Positions 8,615-47,243 of a stretch of 49,803 bases of DNA are shown piece after piece. The notes under the pieces were generated by a model. It was not told the DNA's origin. It saw only the letters and a program-made list of their open reading frames with translations, and made no database searches. The first letter of the stretch is position 1. Each line of letters opens with the position of its first letter. Both the position numbers and the translations under genes were made by a program. Location of the stretch: contig JABICL010000004.1 of assembly GCA_018652265.1 (NCBI GenBank), forward strand, positions 1 through 49,803, written 5' to 3'. This DNA is from Candidatus Peribacteria bacterium. GTDB lineage: Bacteria > Patescibacteriota > Gracilibacteria > Peribacterales > Peribacteraceae.

Positions 8615-10915
8615 ATGCCAAAGAAAAGAAAAAGCACAAAAAGACGTAGGGTTACGAGAAAAAATAGTAAAAGGCTGCCAGCACTTGAATCATTGGAGCT
8701 GAAGGATGAGACCAGAAGACATATAAGTGGCTTTGTTCAAATCGCTTTGTCTGTTTTATTCTTTTTAGTTTTGCAGGGTGCAGCTGGAATGGCAGGTGAG
8801 GCTATAGGAAAGGTACTTGCATTCCTATTTGGTTCGGGAGCAATTGTTTTGCCTGCAGCATTATTTATTTCGGGGCTTTTATTTTTATTTGGAAAAGAGA
8901 ATCACTTAGAACTTAGAGCAGGATTTGGCCTTAGTGTTTGTTTAATAGCAATTCTTGGAATTATTCACATACAGGCTCCGTTTGATGAAATAGGAGTTAG
9001 AAGAGATGAGCTTGGAGGTGCTATTGGATTCATGGCAGCGTTTCCTCTGCTTGCATTTACCAGTATTCCAGTTGCTTACACTGTTCTTTCTTCTCTCCTA
9101 ATAGTTGGTGTGCTTATCACTTTCGAGATGAACATTTCAGATATTATGGGATCTATTGTAGAAATGTTTAAAAGTGAAGAAGAAGATGATGAAGAGGAAT
9201 CTCCAAAAAGAAGAAAGAGAAAGTCCGCAGCAGCTAAGGAATCTGAAGATATGGATGCTATAGAAGAGGGGATGGATGAAGTGGATACAGTTGGAAAATC
9301 CAAAAAGAAGAAAAAAGAAGAGGAAGAAGTATTCAATATAGTGAGACCTGCTTTTCTAGAAGAAAATGGAGAAGGGGAGGCAAAAAAGAAGGTAGCTAAA
9401 AAGAAAAAAGCAAAAGCACAAAGTGATGATGAGATAGAGATGAAAGATACAAGATTTGATGACTGGGAATTTCCATCTTTGGATTGTCTAGATCCAGGAA
9501 GAAGTGAGGTTATGGTTGATGATTCCACATTGGAAAAGCAAGCTAAGCTGATAGAAGAGAAATTGCAGGAGTTCGATGTTACTGTAAAAGTACGCGAAGC
9601 TCATCCTGGTCCAACTGTTACACAGTTTGCTTTAGAGCCATCCGAAGGAATTAAACTTAGTAGAATTGCTAATTTGAAAAGCGACTTGGCACTTGCTTTG
9701 GCCGCTCCATCTCTTCGTATAGAGGCACCTATTCCAGGTAAATCACTTGTTGGTATAGAAATGCCAAATGAGAAGAGGACTATTGTTCATCTTCGTGAAA
9801 TTTTGGAAAGTTCTGAATTTCGTGAGAGTGAGTCTCCACTTAGCTTGCCATTCGGACGGGATGTATCAGGAAAATCAGTTGTACATGATCTTGCAGAAAT
9901 GCCACATCTACTAATAGCTGGCGCTACAGGCTCTGGAAAATCTGTATGCATGAATACGTTTCTTACTTCGCTTCTGTTTCAGAATGCGCCACATGAACTT
10001 AAATTTATTTTGATTGATCCTAAACGTGTAGAGCTCTCATTATATGATGGAATTCCGCATTTGCTTACTCCTGTAATTACAGAATCAGAAAAAGCACTTA
10101 AGGCTCTTAGATGGGTGGTTGCAGAAATGGGTCGTCGTCTTGCTAGATTTTCGGAGGTAGGAGCTAGAAACTTACAGGAATTTAATGACAAACATGAAGA
10201 TGAAAAACATCTACCTAGAATTGTAGTAGTTATAGATGAGCTTGCTGATCTTATGATGAGGCAATACAGACGTGATACAGAAATGATGATTACTAGAATT
10301 GCACAAATTGCACGTGCAACTGGAATTCATCTTATCGTTGCAACTCAAAGACCTAGTGTGGATGTTATTACTGGAATCATAAAAGCAAATATTCCAAGTC
10401 GTGTTGCATTCCGTACAGTTAGCTCAATAGACTCGAGAACTATTTTAGATGGAATAGGATCTGAGGATTTGCTTGGCAAAGGTGATTTGCTATACACGAT
10501 GGCACACACTCCTATGCCTGTTCGTGTTCAGGGAATTTATGTTTCTAGTAGCGAAGTGGAAAAGGTTATAAACAAAATAAAAATAGCTGGAGGAGGAGCA
10601 ATTACAGCAGAAATAAGATTGGGTGATTCTGGAGACAAAGATGAAGATGAGTATGGTGATACAGAATCTATGGGACCAGATGATGAAGATGGAGGTGAAA
10701 GTATAGATTTGGATGCAGATGATGATGGAGGAGATAATCTAACTTTTGAAGCTATAGATATTGTGAAGAGGTCAGGAAAAGCATCTGCAAGCTTGCTTCA
10801 GAGGCATTTGAAGGTTGGATATGCGCGCGCAGCGAGAATATTGGATATTCTGGAAGAAAAGGGTGTGATAGGACCAGGTGAAGGAGCTAAGCCTAGGAAA
10901 GTTTATGTGGAATGA
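8615..10915 (+). CDS. ftsK: FtsK/SpoIIIE DNA translocase
   Basis: A septum-anchored ATPase that pumps chromosomal DNA during division. The N-terminus is basic and followed by about four membrane helices (residues 40-175). Next comes a highly charged Glu/Lys linker (about 188-290) and the motor with Walker A GATGSGKSV (436-444) and Walker B VVVIDELADLMM (about 535). The motifs ATQRPSVDVITGIIKANIPSRVAFR and DGIGSEDLLGKGDLLY are diagnostic of FtsK. The C-terminal gamma winged helix (about 705-766; SLLQRHLKVGYARAARILD) reads KOPS sequences. At 766 aa it is on the short side but complete. It ends in TGA. Confidence 0.95.
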   Translation: MPKKRKSTKRRRVTRKNSKRLPALESLELKDETRRHISGFVQIALSVLFFLVLQGAAGMAGEAIGKVLAFLFGSGAIVLPAALFISGLLFLFGKENHLELRAGFGLSVCLIAILGIIHIQAPFDEIGVRRDELGGAIGFMAAFPLLAFTSIPVAYTVLSSLLIVGVLITFEMNISDIMGSIVEMFKSEEEDDEEESPKRRKRKSAAAKESEDMDAIEEGMDEVDTVGKSKKKKKEEEEVFNIVRPAFLEENGEGEAKKKVAKKKKAKAQSDDEIEMKDTRFDDWEFPSLDCLDPGRSEVMVDDSTLEKQAKLIEEKLQEFDVTVKVREAHPGPTVTQFALEPSEGIKLSRIANLKSDLALALAAPSLRIEAPIPGKSLVGIEMPNEKRTIVHLREILESSEFRESESPLSLPFGRDVSGKSVVHDLAEMPHLLIAGATGSGKSVCMNTFLTSLLFQNAPHELKFILIDPKRVELSLYDGIPHLLTPVITESEKALKALRWVVAEMGRRLARFSEVGARNLQEFNDKHEDEKHLPRIVVVIDELADLMMRQYRRDTEMMITRIAQIARATGIHLIVATQRPSVDVITGIIKANIPSRVAFRTVSSIDSRTILDGIGSEDLLGKGDLLYTMAHTPMPVRVQGIYVSSSEVEKVINKIKIAGGGAITAEIRLGDSGDKDEDEYGDTESMGPDDEDGGESIDLDADDDGGDNLTFEAIDIVKRSGKASASLLQRHLKVGYARAARILDILEEKGVIGPGEGAKPRKVYVE

Positions 10916-11028
10916 TTGAAAGGATGGAAAAGAGTGAAAGGATTGAAAGGAGACGCTCATATACGATAATACTGACATTTCCTTTCACTCCTTTAAATCG
11001 TTTAAATCATTTCCATCCTCTATTCTGT
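10916..11028. repeat. Hairpin of 9-bp tandem units, GAAAGGATT type (copy 1)
   Basis: Directly after ftsK the left arm repeats units close to ATTGAAAGG/ATGGAAAAG/AGTGAAAGG every 9 bp. The right arm (TTTCCTTTC, ACTCCTTTA, AATCGTTTA, AATCATTTC) is their inverted counterpart. The loop contains CTCATATACGATAATACTGA. A second copy at 37378-37490 keeps both arms and the loop, so this is a dispersed element rather than a simple terminator. It may end ftsK transcription. Confidence 0.75.
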
Positions 11029-12328: not shown

Positions 12329-12434
12329 AGCAAGCGTGCAGGCGGTATTTTGCGTAAGAAATCATTCTTGGGTACCAAGATATGATCAATCCCATGTTGA
12401 TTTCGTCGCATATACCGCCTTAAGCACGCGAGCG
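12329..12434. repeat. MITE-like repeat, copy 1 (106 bp)
   Basis: This intergenic stretch is nearly identical to the reverse complement of 34663-34766, including the blocks AAGAAATCATTCTTGGGTAC and TGATTTCGTCGCATATACCG. Its ends are imperfect inverted repeats sharing GCGTGC near the outer edge and GGC further in (AGCAAGCGTGCAGGC versus CGCTCGCGTGCTTAAGGC). It has no coding capacity. The rest of the gap up to 12588 contains only AT-rich sequence with no gene I can support. Confidence 0.75.
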
Positions 12435-33270: not shown

Positions 33271-33352
33271 TGCTTTCCTCGACTGAGTTACGCTGCCTCT
33301 CGACTTTCGCGATAGGCGAAAGCTCGAGGAAAGCGTAACGAATGGAGAGGTC
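33271..33352. repeat. GCTTTCCTCGA palindromic element, nested copy (locus 1)
   Basis: The outer element GCTTTCCTCGACTGA-GTTACGC ... GCGTAAC-GAATGGAGAGG is interrupted in its loop by a complete inner element CCTCTCGA-CTTTCGC...GCGAAAG-CTCGAGGAAAGC. The stem sequences differ from other copies while the outer flanks are kept. It lies between the two CAP genes. Confidence 0.7.
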
Positions 33353-34662: not shown

Positions 34663-34766
34663 CGCTCGCGTGCTTAAGGCGGTATATGCGACGAAATCAA
34701 CATGGGATTGATAATATATTGGTACCCAAGAATGATTTCTTAGTAAAAATAGCCTGCACGCTTGCT
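34663..34766. repeat. MITE-like repeat, copy 2 (104 bp, inverted relative to copy 1)
   Basis: Reverse-complement match to 12329-12434, differing at a few scattered positions and by 2 bp in length. It occupies most of the 310-bp gap before the hydrolase gene together with the palindrome that follows. Confidence 0.75.
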
Positions 34767-35702: not shown

Positions 35703-35746
35703 GGCTCTCCTCGAGTGAGTCCGCTTCAGCGGACGAGTCGAGAGGT
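35703..35746. repeat. GCTTTCCTCGA palindromic element (locus 2)
   Basis: A single unit: GCTCTCCTCGAGTGA, stem GTCCGC-TTCA-GCGGAC, then GAGTCGAGAGG. It lies directly after the hydrolase stop. The flanks match the elements at loci 3-7, while the stem is unique. Confidence 0.7.
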
Positions 35747-35780
35747 AGACAGATGTGGACTCACTCTAGAAAAGCGCAGG

Positions 35781-37358: not shown

Positions 37359-37377
37359 TTTACTAGTAATTGGTAGA

Positions 37378-37490
37378 AGGATGGAAAAGAGTGAAAGGAG
37401 TGAAAGGATTAAAAGGAGAAACTCATATCTGGCGATACTGACATTTCCTTTCAATCCTTTCTATCTTTTAAATCCTTTCCATCCTTTTCC
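37378..37490. repeat. Hairpin of 9-bp tandem units, GAAAGGATT type (copy 2)
   Basis: The left arm has units such as GTGAAAGGA, GTGAAAGGA, TTAAAAGGA. The right arm has TTTCCTTTC, AATCCTTTC, TATCTTTTA, AATCCTTTC. The loop CTCATATCTGGCGATACTGA matches the loop of copy 1 (10916-11028). It sits between the MurF-like stop and the promoter of the next gene. Confidence 0.75.
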
Positions 37491-38828: not shown

Positions 38829-40019
38829 ATGGAAGTAAGAATCGCTGAAAATCGTGCAGAGTGGGAGAATTTCTTGAGAAATCAGGAATGGTCGCCGTTT
38901 TTGCAATCTTGGAATATGGGAGATGTTTATGAGAGTTTGGGACAGGAGGTTATCAGGATGGAGGTGAGGGATGAGGGTGAGATTATTGGTGTATGCCAGG
39001 GGGTTGTGGTTCCTGCTAGAAGGGGAAAGCATATTGCGGTGCAGTATGGACCTTTGACCGCGGTTCGCGATCAGTGTTCCGCGATCCGTGTGTTTGCAGA
39101 GGAGTTGAAGAAGATTGCTGTAGAGAAGAATTGTGCTTTTGTGAGGATGAGTCCGTTTTGGCCTGCTAAAAATTCTAATTGCCTCTCAACTCGTTGTGCT
39201 TTCCTCGAGCATCAGCCTATGGCTGATGTCGAGAGGCAGCACAACTCGCTCGAGGAAAGCTTAAAAGAATTGGGGTTTCGAGATGCACCACTTCATATGC
39301 TCGCAGAGCATGTGTGGTACTTAAATCTAGAAGGAAAGACAGAAGAAGAAATACTAGCTGGCATGAGAAAGAACACTAGAAACCTCATAAGGCGCTCAGA
39401 GAGAGAAGGTGTAACTGTGGAAGTATCCGATGATCCAGTAAGAGATATGGAGATCTTCCTGAAGCTTCATGATGAGACGAGAAAAAGACATGGATTTACG
39501 CCTTATACTGATGAGTTTTTTGAAGCGCAAGTGAAAGAGTTTGGAAGTGACAAAGAAGCTTTCCTCGACCGAGTGCCGCTTGCGGCAGGAGTGGAGAGGA
39601 TGCCTCTCGATTCGGCTCCTTGCGAGGAGTCTCACTCGAGGAAAGCAGGCGGCGCTGTTATGTATATAGCTAGACTTAACGGTGAGCCGGTATCTGCTTC
39701 TATACATATGACTTACGGAGGCGAGACGAGCTATCACCATGGAGCGAGTACTTCTAAGTATCCTAAGTGTTATGCGAGTTATTTACTCCAATGGACTGCT
39801 ATAAGAGATGCTCTGAAGAGGGGAGACAAGATATTCAATTTCTGGGGAGTATCTCCAGAGGGCGTAAAAAAACATCCATTTGCTGGAGTGCGCACATTTA
39901 AGACTGGTTTCGGCGGAGAGCTGCTTGAATTGATGCATTGCAAGGATCTTGCTGTATCGAAAAAATATTGGCTCAACTTTGCGATTGAAAATTTTAGGAA
40001 GTGGAAGAGGGGGTTTTAG
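38829..40019 (+). CDS. FemX/FemAB-like peptidoglycan bridge transferase with two in-frame repeat insertions
   Basis: A 396-residue double-GNAT aminoacyltransferase that should add amino acids to the cross-bridge of lipid II. FemX-type features are PFLQSWNMGDVYESLGQEVIR near the start, the NLIRRSEREGV helix, LHDETRKRHGFTPY, and AASYLLQWTAIRDALKRG-like and FNFWGVSPEG segments near the end. Two tracts do not belong to the family. Residues about 118-144 and 244-273 are encoded by palindromic elements (39181-39260, 39558-39646) that keep the frame. Without them the length would be about 340 aa, normal for the family. The 3' end overlaps the convergent gene by 4 bp. Confidence 0.85.
   Translation: MEVRIAENRAEWENFLRNQEWSPFLQSWNMGDVYESLGQEVIRMEVRDEGEIIGVCQGVVVPARRGKHIAVQYGPLTAVRDQCSAIRVFAEELKKIAVEKNCAFVRMSPFWPAKNSNCLSTRCAFLEHQPMADVERQHNSLEESLKELGFRDAPLHMLAEHVWYLNLEGKTEEEILAGMRKNTRNLIRRSEREGVTVEVSDDPVRDMEIFLKLHDETRKRHGFTPYTDEFFEAQVKEFGSDKEAFLDRVPLAAGVERMPLDSAPCEESHSRKAGGAVMYIARLNGEPVSASIHMTYGGETSYHHGASTSKYPKCYASYLLQWTAIRDALKRGDKIFNFWGVSPEGVKKHPFAGVRTFKTGFGGELLELMHCKDLAVSKKYWLNFAIENFRKWKRGF
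39181..39260. repeat. GCTTTCCTCGA palindromic element inside the FemX-like gene, nested (locus 3)
   Basis: An outer unit CCTCTCAACTCG-TTGTGCT ... AGCACAA-CTCGCTCGAGGAAAGC holds in its loop a second complete unit TTTCCTCGA-GCATCAGCC...GGCTGATG-TCGAGAGGC. The 80-bp insertion plus one base adds 27 codons and does not break the frame. Confidence 0.75.
39558..39646. repeat. GCTTTCCTCGA palindromic element inside the FemX-like gene, two-unit form (locus 4)
   Basis: Left unit GCTTTCCTCGACCGAG-TGCCGC-TT-GCGGCA-GGAGTGGAGAGG is joined through AT to right unit CCTCTCGATTCGGCTCC-TTGC-GAGG..CTCACTCGAGGAAAGC. These two units are the same two that flank the GIY-YIG gene at 44934-45308. The 89-bp insertion plus one base adds 30 codons in frame. 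Confidence 0.75.
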
Positions 40020-42487: not shown

Positions 42488-42592
42488 AGGTATCTTAGGT
42501 AAGTTAGGTAAATTAAGTATCTTAGGTACACCTAAAGTACCTAAAGTACCTAATGTACGTAAAGTACTTAATCTATATGTACCTAATCTAAG
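42488..42592. repeat. Hairpin of 9-bp tandem units, TTAGGTA type (copy 1)
   Basis: Left arm units TCTTAGGTA, AGTTAGGTA, AATTAAGTA, TCTTAGGTA run every 9 bp and are answered by CTAAAGTAC, CTAAAGTAC, CTAATGTAC, GTAAAGTAC in the right arm. The array reaches into the end of the NUDIX gene, whose TAG stop (42583-42585) is formed by a repeat unit. Confidence 0.8.
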
Positions 42593-43014
42593 ATCGATAA
42601 AATTACTTCCAAATATTCTTTCCTCAAAATGTAATTCATAATCTCCTCCACCTCTACCCATTTGAAGTCATCCAATTCTCTCTGATCGACTTTTACTTCG
42701 GTATCATTTGGAACTTCGGCTTTTACAAAAATTAGTTTCTGGCCTATGTATTTAGGATTCTCTGCTTTTATGAAGTGTTCAGGAAAATCATACTGATAAG
42801 TTTGATCGCATATTTCAAATTTATCTGGAGCTACTTCTATGCCAGTTTCTTCCATAAGTTCTCTAGATGCTGCTTCTTTTTCATTTTCTCCTTCCTCTAT
42901 CCCTCCTTGTGCAATCTGCCAGGCATCATCTTTTCGTGGCTTGTGTACAAGTAGTACTTTCCCGTCTTTGCGGGTTATAAGTGCAGATACGCAGTGGCGA
43001 TATTGTGAGTACAT
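42583..43014 (-). CDS. NUDIX hydrolase
   Basis: A 143-residue NUDIX protein hydrolysing nucleoside-diphosphate derivatives. The Nudix box GGIEEGENEKEAASRELMEE continues TGIEV and fits G-x5-E-x7-R-E-x2-E-E-x-G-U. The chosen start at 43014 (MYSQYRHCVSALI) is where family similarity begins. The open frame extends another 92 codons upstream, but these are repeat sequence and the thrS start region. WQIAQGG at the box edge resembles RppH/Ap4A-hydrolase-type enzymes, so RNA 5' end or dinucleotide hydrolysis is possible. Divergent from thrS across a TTAGGTA hairpin. Confidence 0.9.
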   Translation of the reverse strand: MYSQYRHCVSALITRKDGKVLLVHKPRKDDAWQIAQGGIEEGENEKEAASRELMEETGIEVAPDKFEICDQTYQYDFPEHFIKAENPKYIGQKLIFVKAEVPNDTEVKVDQRELDDFKWVEVEEIMNYILRKEYLEVILSILD

Positions 43015-43016
43015 TA

Positions 43017-43138
43017 TTTTAGGTAAATTAGGTATTTTAGGTATGTTACGTATATTAGGTACATACTTAATTCGAGATAATATTGTGTACCTAAAATACC
43101 TAAAGTACCTAATGTACGTAAAGTACCTATACATGCTA
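43017..43138. repeat. Hairpin of 9-bp tandem units, TTAGGTA type (copy 2)
   Basis: Left arm TTTTAGGTA, AATTAGGTA, TTTTAGGTA, TGTTACGTA, TATTAGGTA; loop CATACTTAATTCGAGATAAT; right arm GTACCTAAA, ATACCTAAA, GTACCTAAT, GTACGTAAA, GTACCTATA. It fills the divergent gap between the NUDIX and thrS genes and so must contain or overlap both promoters. Confidence 0.85.
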
Positions 43139-43142
43139 ATAT
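43134..43142 (+). promoter_or_regulatory. Extended -10 promoter of thrS
   Basis: TGCTAATAT ends 6 nt before the GTG start at 43149. It lies at the outer edge of the TTAGGTA hairpin. Confidence 0.5.
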
Positions 43143-43148
43143 TATCTC

Positions 43149-44927
43149 GTGCCAGAAATCGACAATCTTCGGCATTCTCTTGCTCACGTCCTCGCTCAGG
43201 CTGTGTGTAGACTATGGCCTGGAACAAAAGTAAGTATAGGTCCAGCAATAGATACAGGGTGTTATTACGATTTTCTTTTCGAGAATCCAATTTCCGATGA
43301 TGATCTGAAGAAAATAGAAAAAGAAATGAAGAAGATAATAAAAGGAAGTCAAAGTTTCGAAGTGGAAAAATTAAAAGCAGATGATTCCATAAAGCTTTGG
43401 AAAGATCGCGGTGAAGAATTTAAGGTAGAACTAATAGAAGATCTAAAAAAAGAAGGAGAGACAGAGGTTACTCACTACAAGAATTTAAATGATAAAGGCG
43501 AAGAAGTATTTGTAGATCTATGTAAAGGAGGACACGTAGAGAATACAAAAGAAATTCCGGTGGACTGTTTCAAGGTTATAAATCTGGCTGGTGCATATTT
43601 CCGTGGAGATGAAAAAAACAAGCAGTTAACTAGAGTCTATGTTTTAGCTTTTGGATCTAAAGAAGAGCTAGCTGAACACTTAAATATGCTAGAAGAAGCC
43701 AAGAAAAGAGATCACAGAAAGCTTGGCAAAGAATTAGATTTATTCACTTTTAGTGAAATGGTTGGACCGGGATTGCCTTTGTGGACTCCTCGTGGAACTT
43801 TGGTTAGGAATTTACTAGATGATTTTGTGTGGGAACTTCGTAGTGCAAAAGGATATGATCGTGTGACTATTCCTCATATCACTAAAAAAGAGCTTTATGA
43901 AACAAGCGGTCATTGGCAGAAATTTGCAGAGGAGCTTTTTCATATAACTACGCGCGAAGGACACGAGTTTGCAATGAAGCCAATGAATTGTCCGCATCAC
44001 ACACAGATTTATGCTCACATGCCTCGTAGTTACAAAGATCTTCCACAAAGATATGCCGAGACCACAACATGCTATAGGGACGAGCAAACTGGTGAACTAC
44101 ATGGACTTTCCCGTGTGCGTGCATTTACTCAGGATGACGCACATGTATTTTGCAGAATGCCACAGGTAAATGAAGAATTTCTGAAGATTTGGGATATTGT
44201 GGATGCTTTTTATTCAACAGTTGGTTTCGGAGAATTGGAAGTGAGATTGTCTTTGCATGATCCTAATGCTCCCGAAAAATATCTTGGAACTAAAGATCTC
44301 TGGAAAGATGCCGAACAGCGCATACGTGATATTGCAAAAGATCGTGGTATTCCATTTGTAGAGCAAATAGGAGAGGCAGCATTTTATGGTCCAAAGGTTG
44401 ATTTTATGACGAAAGATTCTATTGGTCGCGAATGGCAGGTTGCAACTATACAGCTTGATATCAATATGCCAGAGAATTTTGATCTCTCATGTACGAATGA
44501 GAATGGAGAAAAAGAACGAATAGTAATGATTCATGCTGCAATCATGGGATCAATTGAAAGATTTTTCTCTATCTATCTGGAACATGTTGCAGGACATTTC
44601 CCATTATGGCTTGCTCCAATACAAGTTGCTTTGATTCCAGTTTCAAAAGACTATGAAGAATATGCGTTATCACTTCAGTCTAAATTAAAGGAGGAGGGGA
44701 TTAGAGTGGATTATTATGATTCTTCTGAATCTCTGGGCAAGAGAATACGAATAGGAGAAAAGCAGAGGATTCCTTATTTGCTTGTATGTGGAGAAAAGGA
44801 AAAATCAGATAATTCAGTATCTGCTCGTAATGTAAAAACCAAAGAGCAGGTCGAAATTCCCGTATCTGAGTTTATAGAGAAGGTGAAGGAGGCGGTTGCA
44901 GATAGGAGTCTAGAACATCCTTTTTAA
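43149..44927 (+). CDS. thrS: Threonyl-tRNA synthetase lacking the TGS domain
   Basis: A 592-residue class II synthetase that charges tRNA-Thr. It starts with GTG directly at the editing domain (DNLRHSLAHVLAQAV with H-x3-H, and DLCKGGHVENT). The TGS domain normally preceding it is absent, as in other CPR and some archaeal-like forms. The catalytic core has PMNCPHHTQIY (zinc Cys), CYRDEQTGELHGLSRVRAF (split at family position), FTQDDAHVFC (zinc His) and IHAAIMGSIERF (zinc His). The C-terminal anticodon-binding domain starts at PIQVALIPVSKDYEEYA. Complete apart from the missing TGS. Confidence 0.95.
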   Translation: MPEIDNLRHSLAHVLAQAVCRLWPGTKVSIGPAIDTGCYYDFLFENPISDDDLKKIEKEMKKIIKGSQSFEVEKLKADDSIKLWKDRGEEFKVELIEDLKKEGETEVTHYKNLNDKGEEVFVDLCKGGHVENTKEIPVDCFKVINLAGAYFRGDEKNKQLTRVYVLAFGSKEELAEHLNMLEEAKKRDHRKLGKELDLFTFSEMVGPGLPLWTPRGTLVRNLLDDFVWELRSAKGYDRVTIPHITKKELYETSGHWQKFAEELFHITTREGHEFAMKPMNCPHHTQIYAHMPRSYKDLPQRYAETTTCYRDEQTGELHGLSRVRAFTQDDAHVFCRMPQVNEEFLKIWDIVDAFYSTVGFGELEVRLSLHDPNAPEKYLGTKDLWKDAEQRIRDIAKDRGIPFVEQIGEAAFYGPKVDFMTKDSIGREWQVATIQLDINMPENFDLSCTNENGEKERIVMIHAAIMGSIERFFSIYLEHVAGHFPLWLAPIQVALIPVSKDYEEYALSLQSKLKEEGIRVDYYDSSESLGKRIRIGEKQRIPYLLVCGEKEKSDNSVSARNVKTKEQVEIPVSEFIEKVKEAVADRSLEHPF

Positions 44928-44933
44928 AGACAC

Positions 44934-44976
44934 GGCTTTCCTCGACCGAGTCAGCCGCAGCTGACGAGTGGAGAGG
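44934..44976. repeat. GCTTTCCTCGA palindromic element, left unit before the GIY-YIG gene (locus 5)
   Basis: GGCTTTCCTCGACCGAG-TCAGC-CGCA-GCTGA-CGAGTGGAGAGG. It has the same polarity and flanks as the left unit of locus 4. Confidence 0.75.
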
Positions 44977-44981
44977 TTATT

Positions 44982-44990
44982 TGTGATAAT
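44982..44990 (+). promoter_or_regulatory. Extended -10 promoter of the GIY-YIG gene
   Basis: TGTGATAAT ends 9 nt before the ATG at 45000, between the repeat unit and the gene, with no Shine-Dalgarno. Confidence 0.5.
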
Positions 44991-44999
44991 ATCTAATGG

Positions 45000-45260
45000 A
45001 TGACAAAGGAATCATTTTATCTTTATATGATTGAATGTAGTAATGGTAAATATTACACAGGTACAACTAGCAATATAGAAAGACGATGGCAAGAACATCA
45101 AGAAGGCTTGGGCGCGAATTATACAAGAAAATATCCACCTAAAAAATTAGTCTTTGTTAAAGAGTATCAAAGTATTGATATTGCTAGAGAAGTTGAAATA
45201 AAAGTTAAAAAATGGAGCCAAGAAAAAAAGAAAAAACTAATTTCTGGAGAATGGGAATAA
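45000..45260 (+). CDS. GIY-YIG endonuclease-family protein
   Basis: An 86-residue single-domain GIY-YIG protein of the UPF0213/YhbQ type. YLYMIECSNGKYYTGTT holds the two Tyr motifs in the form Y-M-I and Y-Y-T-G. NIERRWQEHQEGLGANYT carries the conserved Arg and His, and VKEYQSIDIAREVEIKVKKW holds the catalytic Glu. Such proteins are usually freestanding and of unclear function, while longer relatives are homing endonucleases. The gene is bounded on both sides, within 25 bp, by the left and right units of a dispersed palindromic element. This suggests it travels with, or was captured by, that element. Confidence 0.88.
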   Translation: MTKESFYLYMIECSNGKYYTGTTSNIERRWQEHQEGLGANYTRKYPPKKLVFVKEYQSIDIAREVEIKVKKWSQEKKKKLISGEWE

Positions 45261-45261
45261 G

Positions 45262-45308
45262 AGTCTCTCGATTCGGCTCTCTGAGGAGAGCCTCACTCGA
45301 GGAAAGCA
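45262..45308. repeat. GCTTTCCTCGA palindromic element, right unit after the GIY-YIG gene (locus 6)
   Basis: CTCTCGATTCGGCTCTC-TGAG-GAGAGCC-TCACTCGAGGAAAGC starts 1-2 bp after the GIY-YIG stop. It corresponds to the right unit of locus 4, where left and right units are joined directly. Confidence 0.75.
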
Positions 45309-45323
45309 GAAGCGGTGTTATAT

Positions 45324-45677
45324 TTAGTCGTTGCGAACGCTTGCCATAACAGCATGCGCTTGCATTGCGTTTTTTTCAGTTGAATTTTTAATGCTTTCTA
45401 TGTCGCATGCTGTTTCATAAATACTTAAACGAACAGCAAATGCTGCAAGTTTACTTGGTTCGATTAGCGGTATTATATCTTGTAAAAATTCCTGTGTATG
45501 GGTTGGTAAGATTGCTATTACTTCTTCTATTCTTTTAAGCGCAAGCTCATTATCAACTTTTTTGCCAATTTCTACAGCAGGATCAGCTTTCTCATAACTT
45601 GGGCCTTCAGTGTGTGAGAGTTCAATTCCTTTTTGCATGATGTGAATCATCATAATTGCCCCTTGACCCAGTGTCAA
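45324..45677 (-). CDS. Hypothetical helical protein (117 aa)
   Basis: A 117-residue, mostly helical soluble protein (ELALKRIEEVIAILPTHTQEF; SKLAAFAVRLSIYETACDI). Starts at 45677, 45653 or 45638 are possible; the last (MQKGIELSH) leaves room for the divergent promoter of the next gene. No family recognised. Codon use agrees with the neighbours. Divergent from the DUF11-like surface protein gene. Confidence 0.5.
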   Translation of the reverse strand: MTLGQGAIMMIHIMQKGIELSHTEGPSYEKADPAVEIGKKVDNELALKRIEEVIAILPTHTQEFLQDIIPLIEPSKLAAFAVRLSIYETACDIESIKNSTEKNAMQAHAVMASVRND

Positions 45678-45716: not shown

Positions 45717-46979
45717 ATGAAAAAAATCCTATCATCACTATTACTTTTTAGTCTATTTGTAGCCAATATACAGGTCGTACAAGCTATTCCTGCACGTAGA
45801 GGAGGAGAGCATTACACACAGATAGAAACATGTGAACCAGCTGTAAAGAGGTTCCCATACGGGCCTGGTAGAAGATCTAGTTCTACTGCAGTACTAGTAA
45901 CTATTAGGCAGCAAGTATTCAATGTAGGAAGCCAGCTTGATGCTGCTTCTTCTGCTCAGACAATTACAGGAGTGAGAAGTGATGACCAGTTAGGAGTAAG
46001 ACTCTCTATAAGAAATGCATCTATATATGATGTAGGCGATGTAGAGATTAAACATGCTTTCAAATCAAGCCAGCCAGGACTTTTACTAGAAGGAGTGGCT
46101 TCGGTAGATGGTGCTTTTTATGATGAAAGAAGATCTAAATTTACAGTAGATAGAATAGAAAGTGGTGAAACTGCAGAAGTTACTTTCAGGCTACTTCTAA
46201 ATGATGATGTCGATATAAATATGTCACAGAACAAATTCGAAGTTGTAGATTTTGTTGTTCTAGAATCAGAAAGAAGATATCCACCTTCATCTCCAGATAC
46301 CGTTCCAGGTCGTACAACTCAGGATGTTGTAAAGCTTGGGATCGGAGGAACTGCAGTTTCTTGTTTCAAGGCTTACGAGGAATACACAGTAATTCCACCA
46401 AGCACAGTTTCTACGGGTGGATCTAGAGATTGGACAAGCGATAGCACTAGAGATTGGAATAACGAAAGACAAAGTGGTGTCATACAGCTTTCTAAGAGAG
46501 CAAGTAGACAGGAAGCAAAGCCTGGTGAAATAGTTTCATATACTGTGACTGTTCAGAATCGTGGAGATGAGATTGTAAAAAATGCCATAGTTGATGATCG
46601 TTTCGATACTTCCAAGCAGAATGTCGAAAATGCAGGCGGGGGATTGGTTACAGGATTTGGTATTCGATGGGTTATATCTAGCCTTAGTCCTGGAGAGAAA
46701 TGGACAACAAGGTATAGTACTAAAATAAATTCAAGTGCTTCTCAGGGAGATGTTCTTCCAAATACTGTGACTGTAACATCTGATGATCTTTCTAGAGCTG
46801 ACACTGCTAAGCTTAGATCTAATTCTCAGATTCGAGTGGTAAATACATATGTGATACCACAGACTGGTGTTAATTTACCTGCTGCATTACTAGTTGCTTT
46901 GCAGATTCTCGCTGGAGTACTGATTGCGTTTGGGCTGTTTGGAGTGGGGCTTTGGGTGGTTACGAGGAAGGTAATTTAG
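45717..46979 (+). CDS. DUF11-like surface protein with C-terminal IPQTG sorting-type signal
   Basis: 420 residues from the ATG at 45717, chosen because it begins a clean signal peptide (MKKILSSLLLFSLFVANIQ, then VVQA). After about 230 residues of beta-rich sequence comes a DUF11-type domain (about 260-370): IQLSKRASRQEAKPGEIVSY, TVTVQNRGDEIVKNAIVDD and LSPGEKWTTRYSTKI, typical of extracellular repeats. The C-terminus has IPQTG, a hydrophobic helix (ALLVALQILAGVLIAFGLFG) and a final RK pair, resembling a sortase signal. No sortase gene is in the window. The TAG stop lies within the first unit of a TTAGGTA hairpin. Confidence 0.75.
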   Translation: MKKILSSLLLFSLFVANIQVVQAIPARRGGEHYTQIETCEPAVKRFPYGPGRRSSSTAVLVTIRQQVFNVGSQLDAASSAQTITGVRSDDQLGVRLSIRNASIYDVGDVEIKHAFKSSQPGLLLEGVASVDGAFYDERRSKFTVDRIESGETAEVTFRLLLNDDVDINMSQNKFEVVDFVVLESERRYPPSSPDTVPGRTTQDVVKLGIGGTAVSCFKAYEEYTVIPPSTVSTGGSRDWTSDSTRDWNNERQSGVIQLSKRASRQEAKPGEIVSYTVTVQNRGDEIVKNAIVDDRFDTSKQNVENAGGGLVTGFGIRWVISSLSPGEKWTTRYSTKINSSASQGDVLPNTVTVTSDDLSRADTAKLRSNSQIRVVNTYVIPQTGVNLPAALLVALQILAGVLIAFGLFGVGLWVVTRKVI

Positions 46980-47090
46980 GTATCTTAGGTACATTAGGTA
47001 ATTTAGGTGCGCAATATGTATCTCGTATTAAGTATGTACCTAAATTACGTAAGATACATAAAGTACGTAATGTACCTAATATAAGATATT
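46977..47090. repeat. Hairpin of 9-bp tandem units, TTAGGTA type (copy 3)
   Basis: Left arm TTTAGGTAT, CTTAGGTAC, ATTAGGTAA, TTTAGGTGC; right arm GTACCTAAA, TTACGTAAG, ATACATAAA, GTACGTAAT, GTACCTAAT. It separates the DUF11-like gene from the groESL promoter and may end transcription of the former. Confidence 0.8.
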
Positions 47091-47102
47091 GAACAAAAAT
47101 CC

Positions 47103-47148: not shown

Positions 47149-47243
47149 GCTTTTCTCGAGTGAGGACTGAGCGTAAGCGAAGGACTAATCGAGAGACAGC
47201 CTCTCCACTCGTTCGCTTCGGCGAACTTCGGTCGAGGAGAGCT
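47149..47243. repeat. GCTTTCCTCGA palindromic element in the groESL leader (locus 7)
   Basis: On the minus strand it reads as left unit GCTCTCCTCGACCGAA-GTTCGC-CGAA-GCGAAC-GAGTGGAGAGG joined by CTGT to right unit CTCTCGATTAGTCC...TCCTCACTCGAGAAAAGCC, the same two-unit architecture as locus 4. It lies between the CIRCE promoter and groES, so it is part of the transcribed leader. Confidence 0.72.

Follow-up and report, generated by a model that had tools for sequence, protein, structure and literature searches.

We place at about two in three the probability that the locus described here is a minimal mobile palindromic element driven by a nuclease, in which a GIY-YIG gene stands between a hairpin unit and a second, inverted hairpin unit. 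The window (the whole analysed stretch of 49,803 nucleotides) is contig C38 of a Candidatus Peribacteria genome of 1.07 Mb in 48 contigs. The gene thrS ends at 44927 and is followed by the left unit, the GIY-YIG gene, the inverted right unit and a convergent ORF, the whole unit-gene-unit element covering about 373 bp. The preliminary description had placed the gene exactly between the two units at distances of about 25 and 2 bp, and this arrangement was confirmed, the spacers measuring 23 and 3 bp. The directly joined left and right units that it had reported, with gaps of 2-4 bases, are also real (gap ATG at 39558-39646, gap CAG at 47149-47242). The features of the window are the following, with arm types as defined further below:

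33272..33350, plus strand: A-type unit whose loop contains an inverted C-type unit (sequence, fold)
35704..35775, plus strand: B-type copy, right part degenerate (pair extraction, core search)
39182..39260, minus strand: B-type unit whose loop contains a C-type unit, in frame within a femX-like ORF (sequence, alignment, fold)
39558..39646, plus strand: joined A-B copy without gene, 3-bp gap, in frame in the femX-like ORF (cloverleaf fold)
44935..44976, plus strand: left hairpin unit of arm type A, GCTTTCCTCGACCGAGT-hairpin-CGAGTGGAGAGG, in full GCTTTCCTCGACCGAGTCAGCCGCAGCTGACGAGTGGAGAGG (sequence; 22 distinct A-type arms in the genome; invariant ends, covarying inner stem)
44977..44999, plus strand: 23-bp spacer from left unit to start codon
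45000..45260, plus strand: GIY-YIG nuclease gene, ATG to TAA, 86 aa, UPF0213/YhbQ type (Pfam, alignment, PDB relatives, fold model)
45264..45307, minus strand: right hairpin unit of arm type B, inverted, TCTCTCGATTC-hairpin-CTCACTCGAGGAAAGC, 87% identical to 39604-39648 (sequence; 15 distinct B-type arms in the genome)
45324..45677, minus strand: convergent 117-aa ORF
47149..47242, plus strand: joined B-A copy without gene, 3-bp gap

Several other repeats were detected in the window. Arrays with a 9-bp period (AGGTATCTT / ACCTAAAGT), with inverted halves, occupy 42488-42590, 43012-43147 and 46969-47096, adjoining thrS or lying near 47 kb, and a second array family of the same period (AAAGGATGG..) occurs in both orientations at 10907-11019 and 37364-37487. 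The segments 12346-12434 and 34663-34751 form an 89-nt inverted repeat pair (94% complementary) of a further dispersed repeat family, and the contig ends (2-140 and 49665-49803) are a perfect 139-nt inverted repeat, possibly an assembly-graph repeat.

The 86-aa protein matches the Pfam GIY-YIG profile PF01541 with 66.3 bits (cut-off 22.6, E = 3.1e-18), and alignment revealed that the clade-invariant residues Y9, Y19-G21, R29, H33 and E66 are kept, which together place it in the UPF0213/YhbQ group of the GIY-YIG superfamily. Its closest PDB sequences are 1zg2 and 1ywl (UPF0213). The predicted fold (pLDDT 90.6) is also nearest to these two structures and then to Slx1, with I-TevI far away, and it leaves no separate DNA-binding domain outside the catalytic fold. 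Among eight pairs of related nuclease genes most differences fall at third codon positions, so the nuclease protein has been kept. The closest homologues of the window protein are 45% identical within the family (74 genomes including the window genome, all Patescibacteria) and 53% identical in the phylum sample, and defence-system models gave no match. Eight GIY-YIG domains are present in the window genome, one of which is bracketed by the unit family of the window; six other small GIY-YIG genes of this genome are without that family. Two other GIY-YIG genes of the same genome (L032 and L034, on contigs C43 and C44) are each preceded by a palindrome of a different type, CATTCGAYTCG, and gene and repeat together are 76% identical between the two.

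The units belong to a family that, among the 74 same-family genomes, is expanded only in the window genome. Their 11-base core, GCTYTCCTCGA, has 10 matches in the window, where shuffles give 0.02, and 99 in the 1.07-Mb genome, where the reversed control pattern has 0, while the 73 other genomes contain 0-11 cores each, near their reversed-control counts of 0-6. About 43 left-right pairs of 63-111 bp were extracted from the genome, a number that includes a few overlapping readings of single copies, and most unit copies are such joined pairs. Three arm types were distinguished, A (CCTCGACCGAG..GAGTGGAGAGG), B (CTCGAGTGAG..GAATCGAGAGG) and C (CTCGAGC..GTCGAGAGG). By inspection, the two arms of the listed pairs differ in type, and sequences and folds identify the 63-bp class as a C unit in the loop of an A or B unit. 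The nuclease-bearing copy has the same ends as the gene-less joined copies. The genome-wide and cross-genome search for units that the preliminary description had proposed yielded the 99 cores, the roughly 43 pairs and nuclease-bearing copies elsewhere, but only one nuclease-bearing copy in the window genome itself. The same description had offered two origins for the joined forms. The first, as deletion products, was dropped after the gap sequences were found to resemble the interior of the element no more closely than shuffled sequences do (best p = 0.06, in one copy). As to the second, the joined pairs of 63-111 bp are plausibly non-autonomous counterparts of the gene-bearing element.

Analysis of the unit sequences revealed that the ends are invariant (GCTYTCCTCGA and GAGTGGAGAGG / GAATCGAGAGG) and that changes in the inner stem are compensated (pairing in 93% of cells; 20 cells with a double change, matched by 0 of 500 shuffles). 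As a single strand, the copy at 39558-39646 is predicted to fold into an 11-bp outer stem, two hairpins and a centre stem GAGAGG/CCTCTC (z = -4.25), and the ends of the nuclease-bearing copy fold in the same way with the gene in the centre loop; the copy at 47149-47242 folds no better than shuffles (z = -0.32). Flank folding energy of GIY-YIG genes and control ORFs was tried as a test of association and did not discriminate between them, probably because the controls contained spurious ORFs and GC-rich DNA, and motif, k-mer and inverted-repeat tests were used instead.

These tests revealed that the nuclease is associated with the units far beyond the window. The question raised at the outset, whether GIY-YIG genes recur between such units, was answered positively, as homologues lie between cognate inverted hairpins across the phylum. 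In the nuclease clade of the window, cognate hairpins are found on both sides of 22 of 35 genes and on at least one side of 30 of 35, with median spacings of 19 bp from unit to start codon and 5 bp from stop codon to unit, which resembles the window. A unit of a named type lies within about 160 bp on at least one side at 90 of 150 GIY-YIG loci and 6 of 253 control windows, and on both sides at 29 of 150 (same type in 27 of the 29) and 0 of 253 (Fisher tests), the named patterns, but not the k-mer counts, having been written after some loci had been seen. Among unbiased k-mers, AGTCGAGAA was counted 37 times within 150 bp of the gene where 0.4 were expected from the region 450-900 bp away, and CCCTTCGAC 34 times where 0.7 were expected. 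Inverted-repeat brackets scoring at least 26 were found at 25 of the 147 GIY-YIG loci with full flanks (17%), whereas the rate was 0.7% among 425 control ORFs and 2.3% among mismatched pairs. In some nuclease clades the units are confined to one side or are lacking altogether.

Other GIY-YIG clades (the HYFYLARC and HVYILEL types) lie a few hundred bp from tRNA genes, several of them near the 3' end (L073, L081, L085, L089, L084, L095, L243, L244, L260 and L262). At L073 (1400-1860), about 20 bp of the 3' end of tRNA-Tyr are repeated beyond the GIY-YIG gene, which resembles an integration duplication.

Hairpin type follows the nuclease lineage and crosses phyla. On the nuclease tree, which has 89 columns and few strong branches and was accordingly used for clustering only, unit type changes 17 times compared with 45.4 times after shuffling (0 of 200 shuffles as low), and the G-type group mixes Patescibacteria and Omnitrophota. 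Among 380 genomes of the phylum, at least five G-type units are present in 8 of 16 genomes carrying the nuclease clade and in 7 of 363 others (p = 7e-9, kinship uncorrected), and the two highest counts, 63 and 47, both belong to carriers. S-type units are present in 14 of 16 carriers and 133 of 363 others, again uncorrected for kinship. These patterns bear on the rather unlikely alternative that the hairpins are REP-like sequences spread by a HuH/Y1 TnpA-REP enzyme, either lost or acting from elsewhere, with the GIY-YIG gene as an accessory (compare TnpB in IS605) or a passenger. RAYT/TnpA enzymes can spread such palindromes in other genomes, and the TnpA-REP genes of REPtrons are flanked by REPs of subclass-specific types, those of class 3 having a CnGA foot (PMC6006769), a shape like that of the window units. 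However, a profile search of the window genome, which is 100% complete, found no Y1_Tnp match, unit type tracks the GIY-YIG lineage, and in genome G396 the G pattern matches three times genome-wide, always flanking the nuclease gene.

Insertion was shown at a related element. The preliminary description had asked for empty sites in sister genomes, and one was found, at this related element and not at the window locus. In Candidatus Doudnabacteria G388, a block of about 438 bp (unit, GIY-YIG gene, units) separates a stop codon from the start codon that follows, and at the same site the same-genus genome G210 reads TTTTTAATTGATATGG with nothing between, which is a clean empty site. G210 likewise lacks a joined pair without gene that G388 carries a few hundred bases farther along. 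No obvious target-site duplication was seen by eye at this site or in the flanks of the listed copies. Comparison of G311 with its sisters was one-sided only (rplI without units), so the G388/G210 pair was used, and the reading of L079 and L091 as one element at two sites was dropped because their left flanks are homologous, so the pair is not evidence of mobility. Paralogous GIY-YIG genes within one genome (L226 and L231 in G069, L249 and L250 in G070) are 82% identical in the gene and a short stretch beside it, which suggests duplication to new sites.

It is quite unlikely that the palindromic repeat was there first and was entered by a free-standing homing endonuclease gene that does not mobilise it. 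GIY-YIG is a classic homing fold, and a single copy in the window genome carries the gene. Against such an invasion, units and gene are gained or absent together in the G388/G210 comparison, the short-spaced brackets stand on both sides in 22 of 35 clade members, and the fold, with no added DNA-binding domain, is nearer UPF0213 and Slx1 than I-TevI.

Copies of the units are also found within coding sequence. The femX/FemAB-like ORF at 38829-40019 contains two different palindromic copies in frame, which are absent from 20 of 20 aligned family homologues, suggesting that the elements are tolerated there as peptide loops. Beside GIY-YIG genes, units lie both upstream and downstream in inverted orientation, and longer motifs are 4.5-11 fold denser there than elsewhere between the genes of those loci. 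All of this argues against the reading, very unlikely in our view, that the gene serves the host in ordinary DNA repair and that the hairpins act as terminators or messenger-stabilising repeats gathering in intergenic gaps, as does the low identity of the closest homologues, although GIY-YIG domains are present in most control genomes and hairpins commonly come after stop codons. That two independent copies came to lie around an unrelated gene by chance has the roughly 43 paired copies scattered over 1.07 Mb in its favour, but it is effectively refuted by the recurrence of the bracketing in other genomes; moreover, at some 50 sites per Mb we estimate that two-sided bracketing of a given gene within 30 bp would be expected about 2e-6 times.

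The nuclease-driven element is thus the reading we prefer. The preliminary description had proposed the gene as cargo or mobilising nuclease; recurrence, the match of type with lineage and the empty site indicate that it belongs to the element, and from co-variation, bracketing, the lack of a Y1 enzyme and the joint gain of units and gene we infer that the nuclease mobilises the units. Slx1 recognises branched DNA and is a member of a repair complex with Slx4. The Slx1-like fold of the model, together with the covarying hairpins, suggests that the nuclease may prefer a branched structure. The paired ends, with their 11-bp outer stem, two variable hairpins and GAGAGG/CCTCTC centre stem, could form a cruciform, or a single-stranded cloverleaf during replication. 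The small SLX1-like nuclease would recognise this structure and nick it at the conserved TCGA-containing base, and the hairpin DNA released or copied would be inserted elsewhere through host repair or replication. The host step would be needed because GIY-YIG enzymes hydrolyse DNA and are not known to join it. Besides its own copy, the nuclease may act in trans on copies that have no gene but the same unit type. That only 1 of about 43 copies in the window genome carries the nuclease is a point against this reading, as are the six small GIY-YIG genes there without the unit family, the nuclease clades with units on one side or none, and the lack of a visible target-site duplication.

Small bacterial palindromes are abundant and mostly without a known mover outside RAYT/TnpA-REP systems, and a nuclease that lies between palindromes, with lineages matching palindrome type across the sampled loci, is a candidate mover. 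The broader reading, that UPF0213/SLX1-like GIY-YIG nucleases form a widespread class of mobile elements in Patescibacteria and Omnitrophota, each mobilising its cognate cruciform-forming hairpins by structure-specific cutting and host repair as an independent counterpart of the REPtron with no transposase, we regard as evenly poised between true and false. If true, it could account for several abundant palindromic repeats in these genomes, those of the CCTGAGCTTGTCGAAGG, TTCTCGACnnnGCTCGAA and TGTCATnCTGAG types. If GIY-YIG nucleases do mobilise hairpins, mobile palindromes would have evolved at least twice, with unrelated enzymes; many genes annotated as 'hypothetical GIY-YIG/UPF0213' would be mobile-element nucleases rather than repair genes, and the in-frame palindromes in conserved genes of small, streamlined genomes would be explained.

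Comparison with known systems revealed partial likenesses. UPF0213/YhbQ and SLX1 are closest in sequence and in fold, but SLX1 works in the Slx4 repair complex, and no hairpin-flanked mobile form of either was described in the open-access literature searched. More generally, no system combining GIY-YIG with palindromic repeats is described in that literature (a result that is no proof of novelty), and the main GIY-YIG phylogenomic study does not mention palindromes (PMC1564403). GIY-YIG homing endonucleases of the I-TevI type share the nuclease superfamily and are also selfish nuclease genes; here, in contrast, there is no intron or intein and no DNA-binding domain beyond the catalytic fold, and the window copies occupy many unrelated sites instead of one cognate site.

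Like prokaryotic MITEs, which are short, gene-less, multi-copy inverted repeats needing an enzyme in trans (PMC10969869), the joined copies of 63-111 bp are short, have 11-bp inverted ends and encode no transposase. They differ in that the window family comes without a transposase or visible target-site duplication and in that each copy has a pair of independent hairpins in place of simple terminal repeats. Rickettsia palindromic elements (RPE), to which the family is likened by description, are small palindromes dispersed in a reduced genome and lie in frame in genes (PMC10969869), as do the two copies in the femX-like ORF. The RPE review does not mention GIY-YIG or an endonuclease (PMC10969869), whereas a nuclease-bearing form exists in the window family.

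In the REPtron (REPIN-BIME with RAYT, TnpA-REP), a single-copy enzyme gene is accompanied by inverted imperfect hairpins that are also dispersed, often as inverted pairs, the hairpin type is specific to the enzyme subclass, and distribution is horizontal and patchy (PMC6006769). The window element is alike in these respects, its inverted units standing on either side of the enzyme gene and being scattered over the genome as well. The gene-bearing form here can be gained as a unit, as in G388 and G210, whereas such joint movement is reported not to occur in REPtrons (PMC6006769). The enzyme here is a GIY-YIG nuclease, not a HuH/tyrosine transposase, and the window units have a TCGA foot, not GTAG, the GT[AG]G foot being absent from the unit ends. 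Because it lacks both the HuH enzyme and the GT[AG]G foot, two features that define a REPtron, the element was not filed as one; it is best read as a REPtron-like mobile palindromic element with a YhbQ/UPF0213-type GIY-YIG nuclease, in place of a HuH transposase, as its cognate enzyme.
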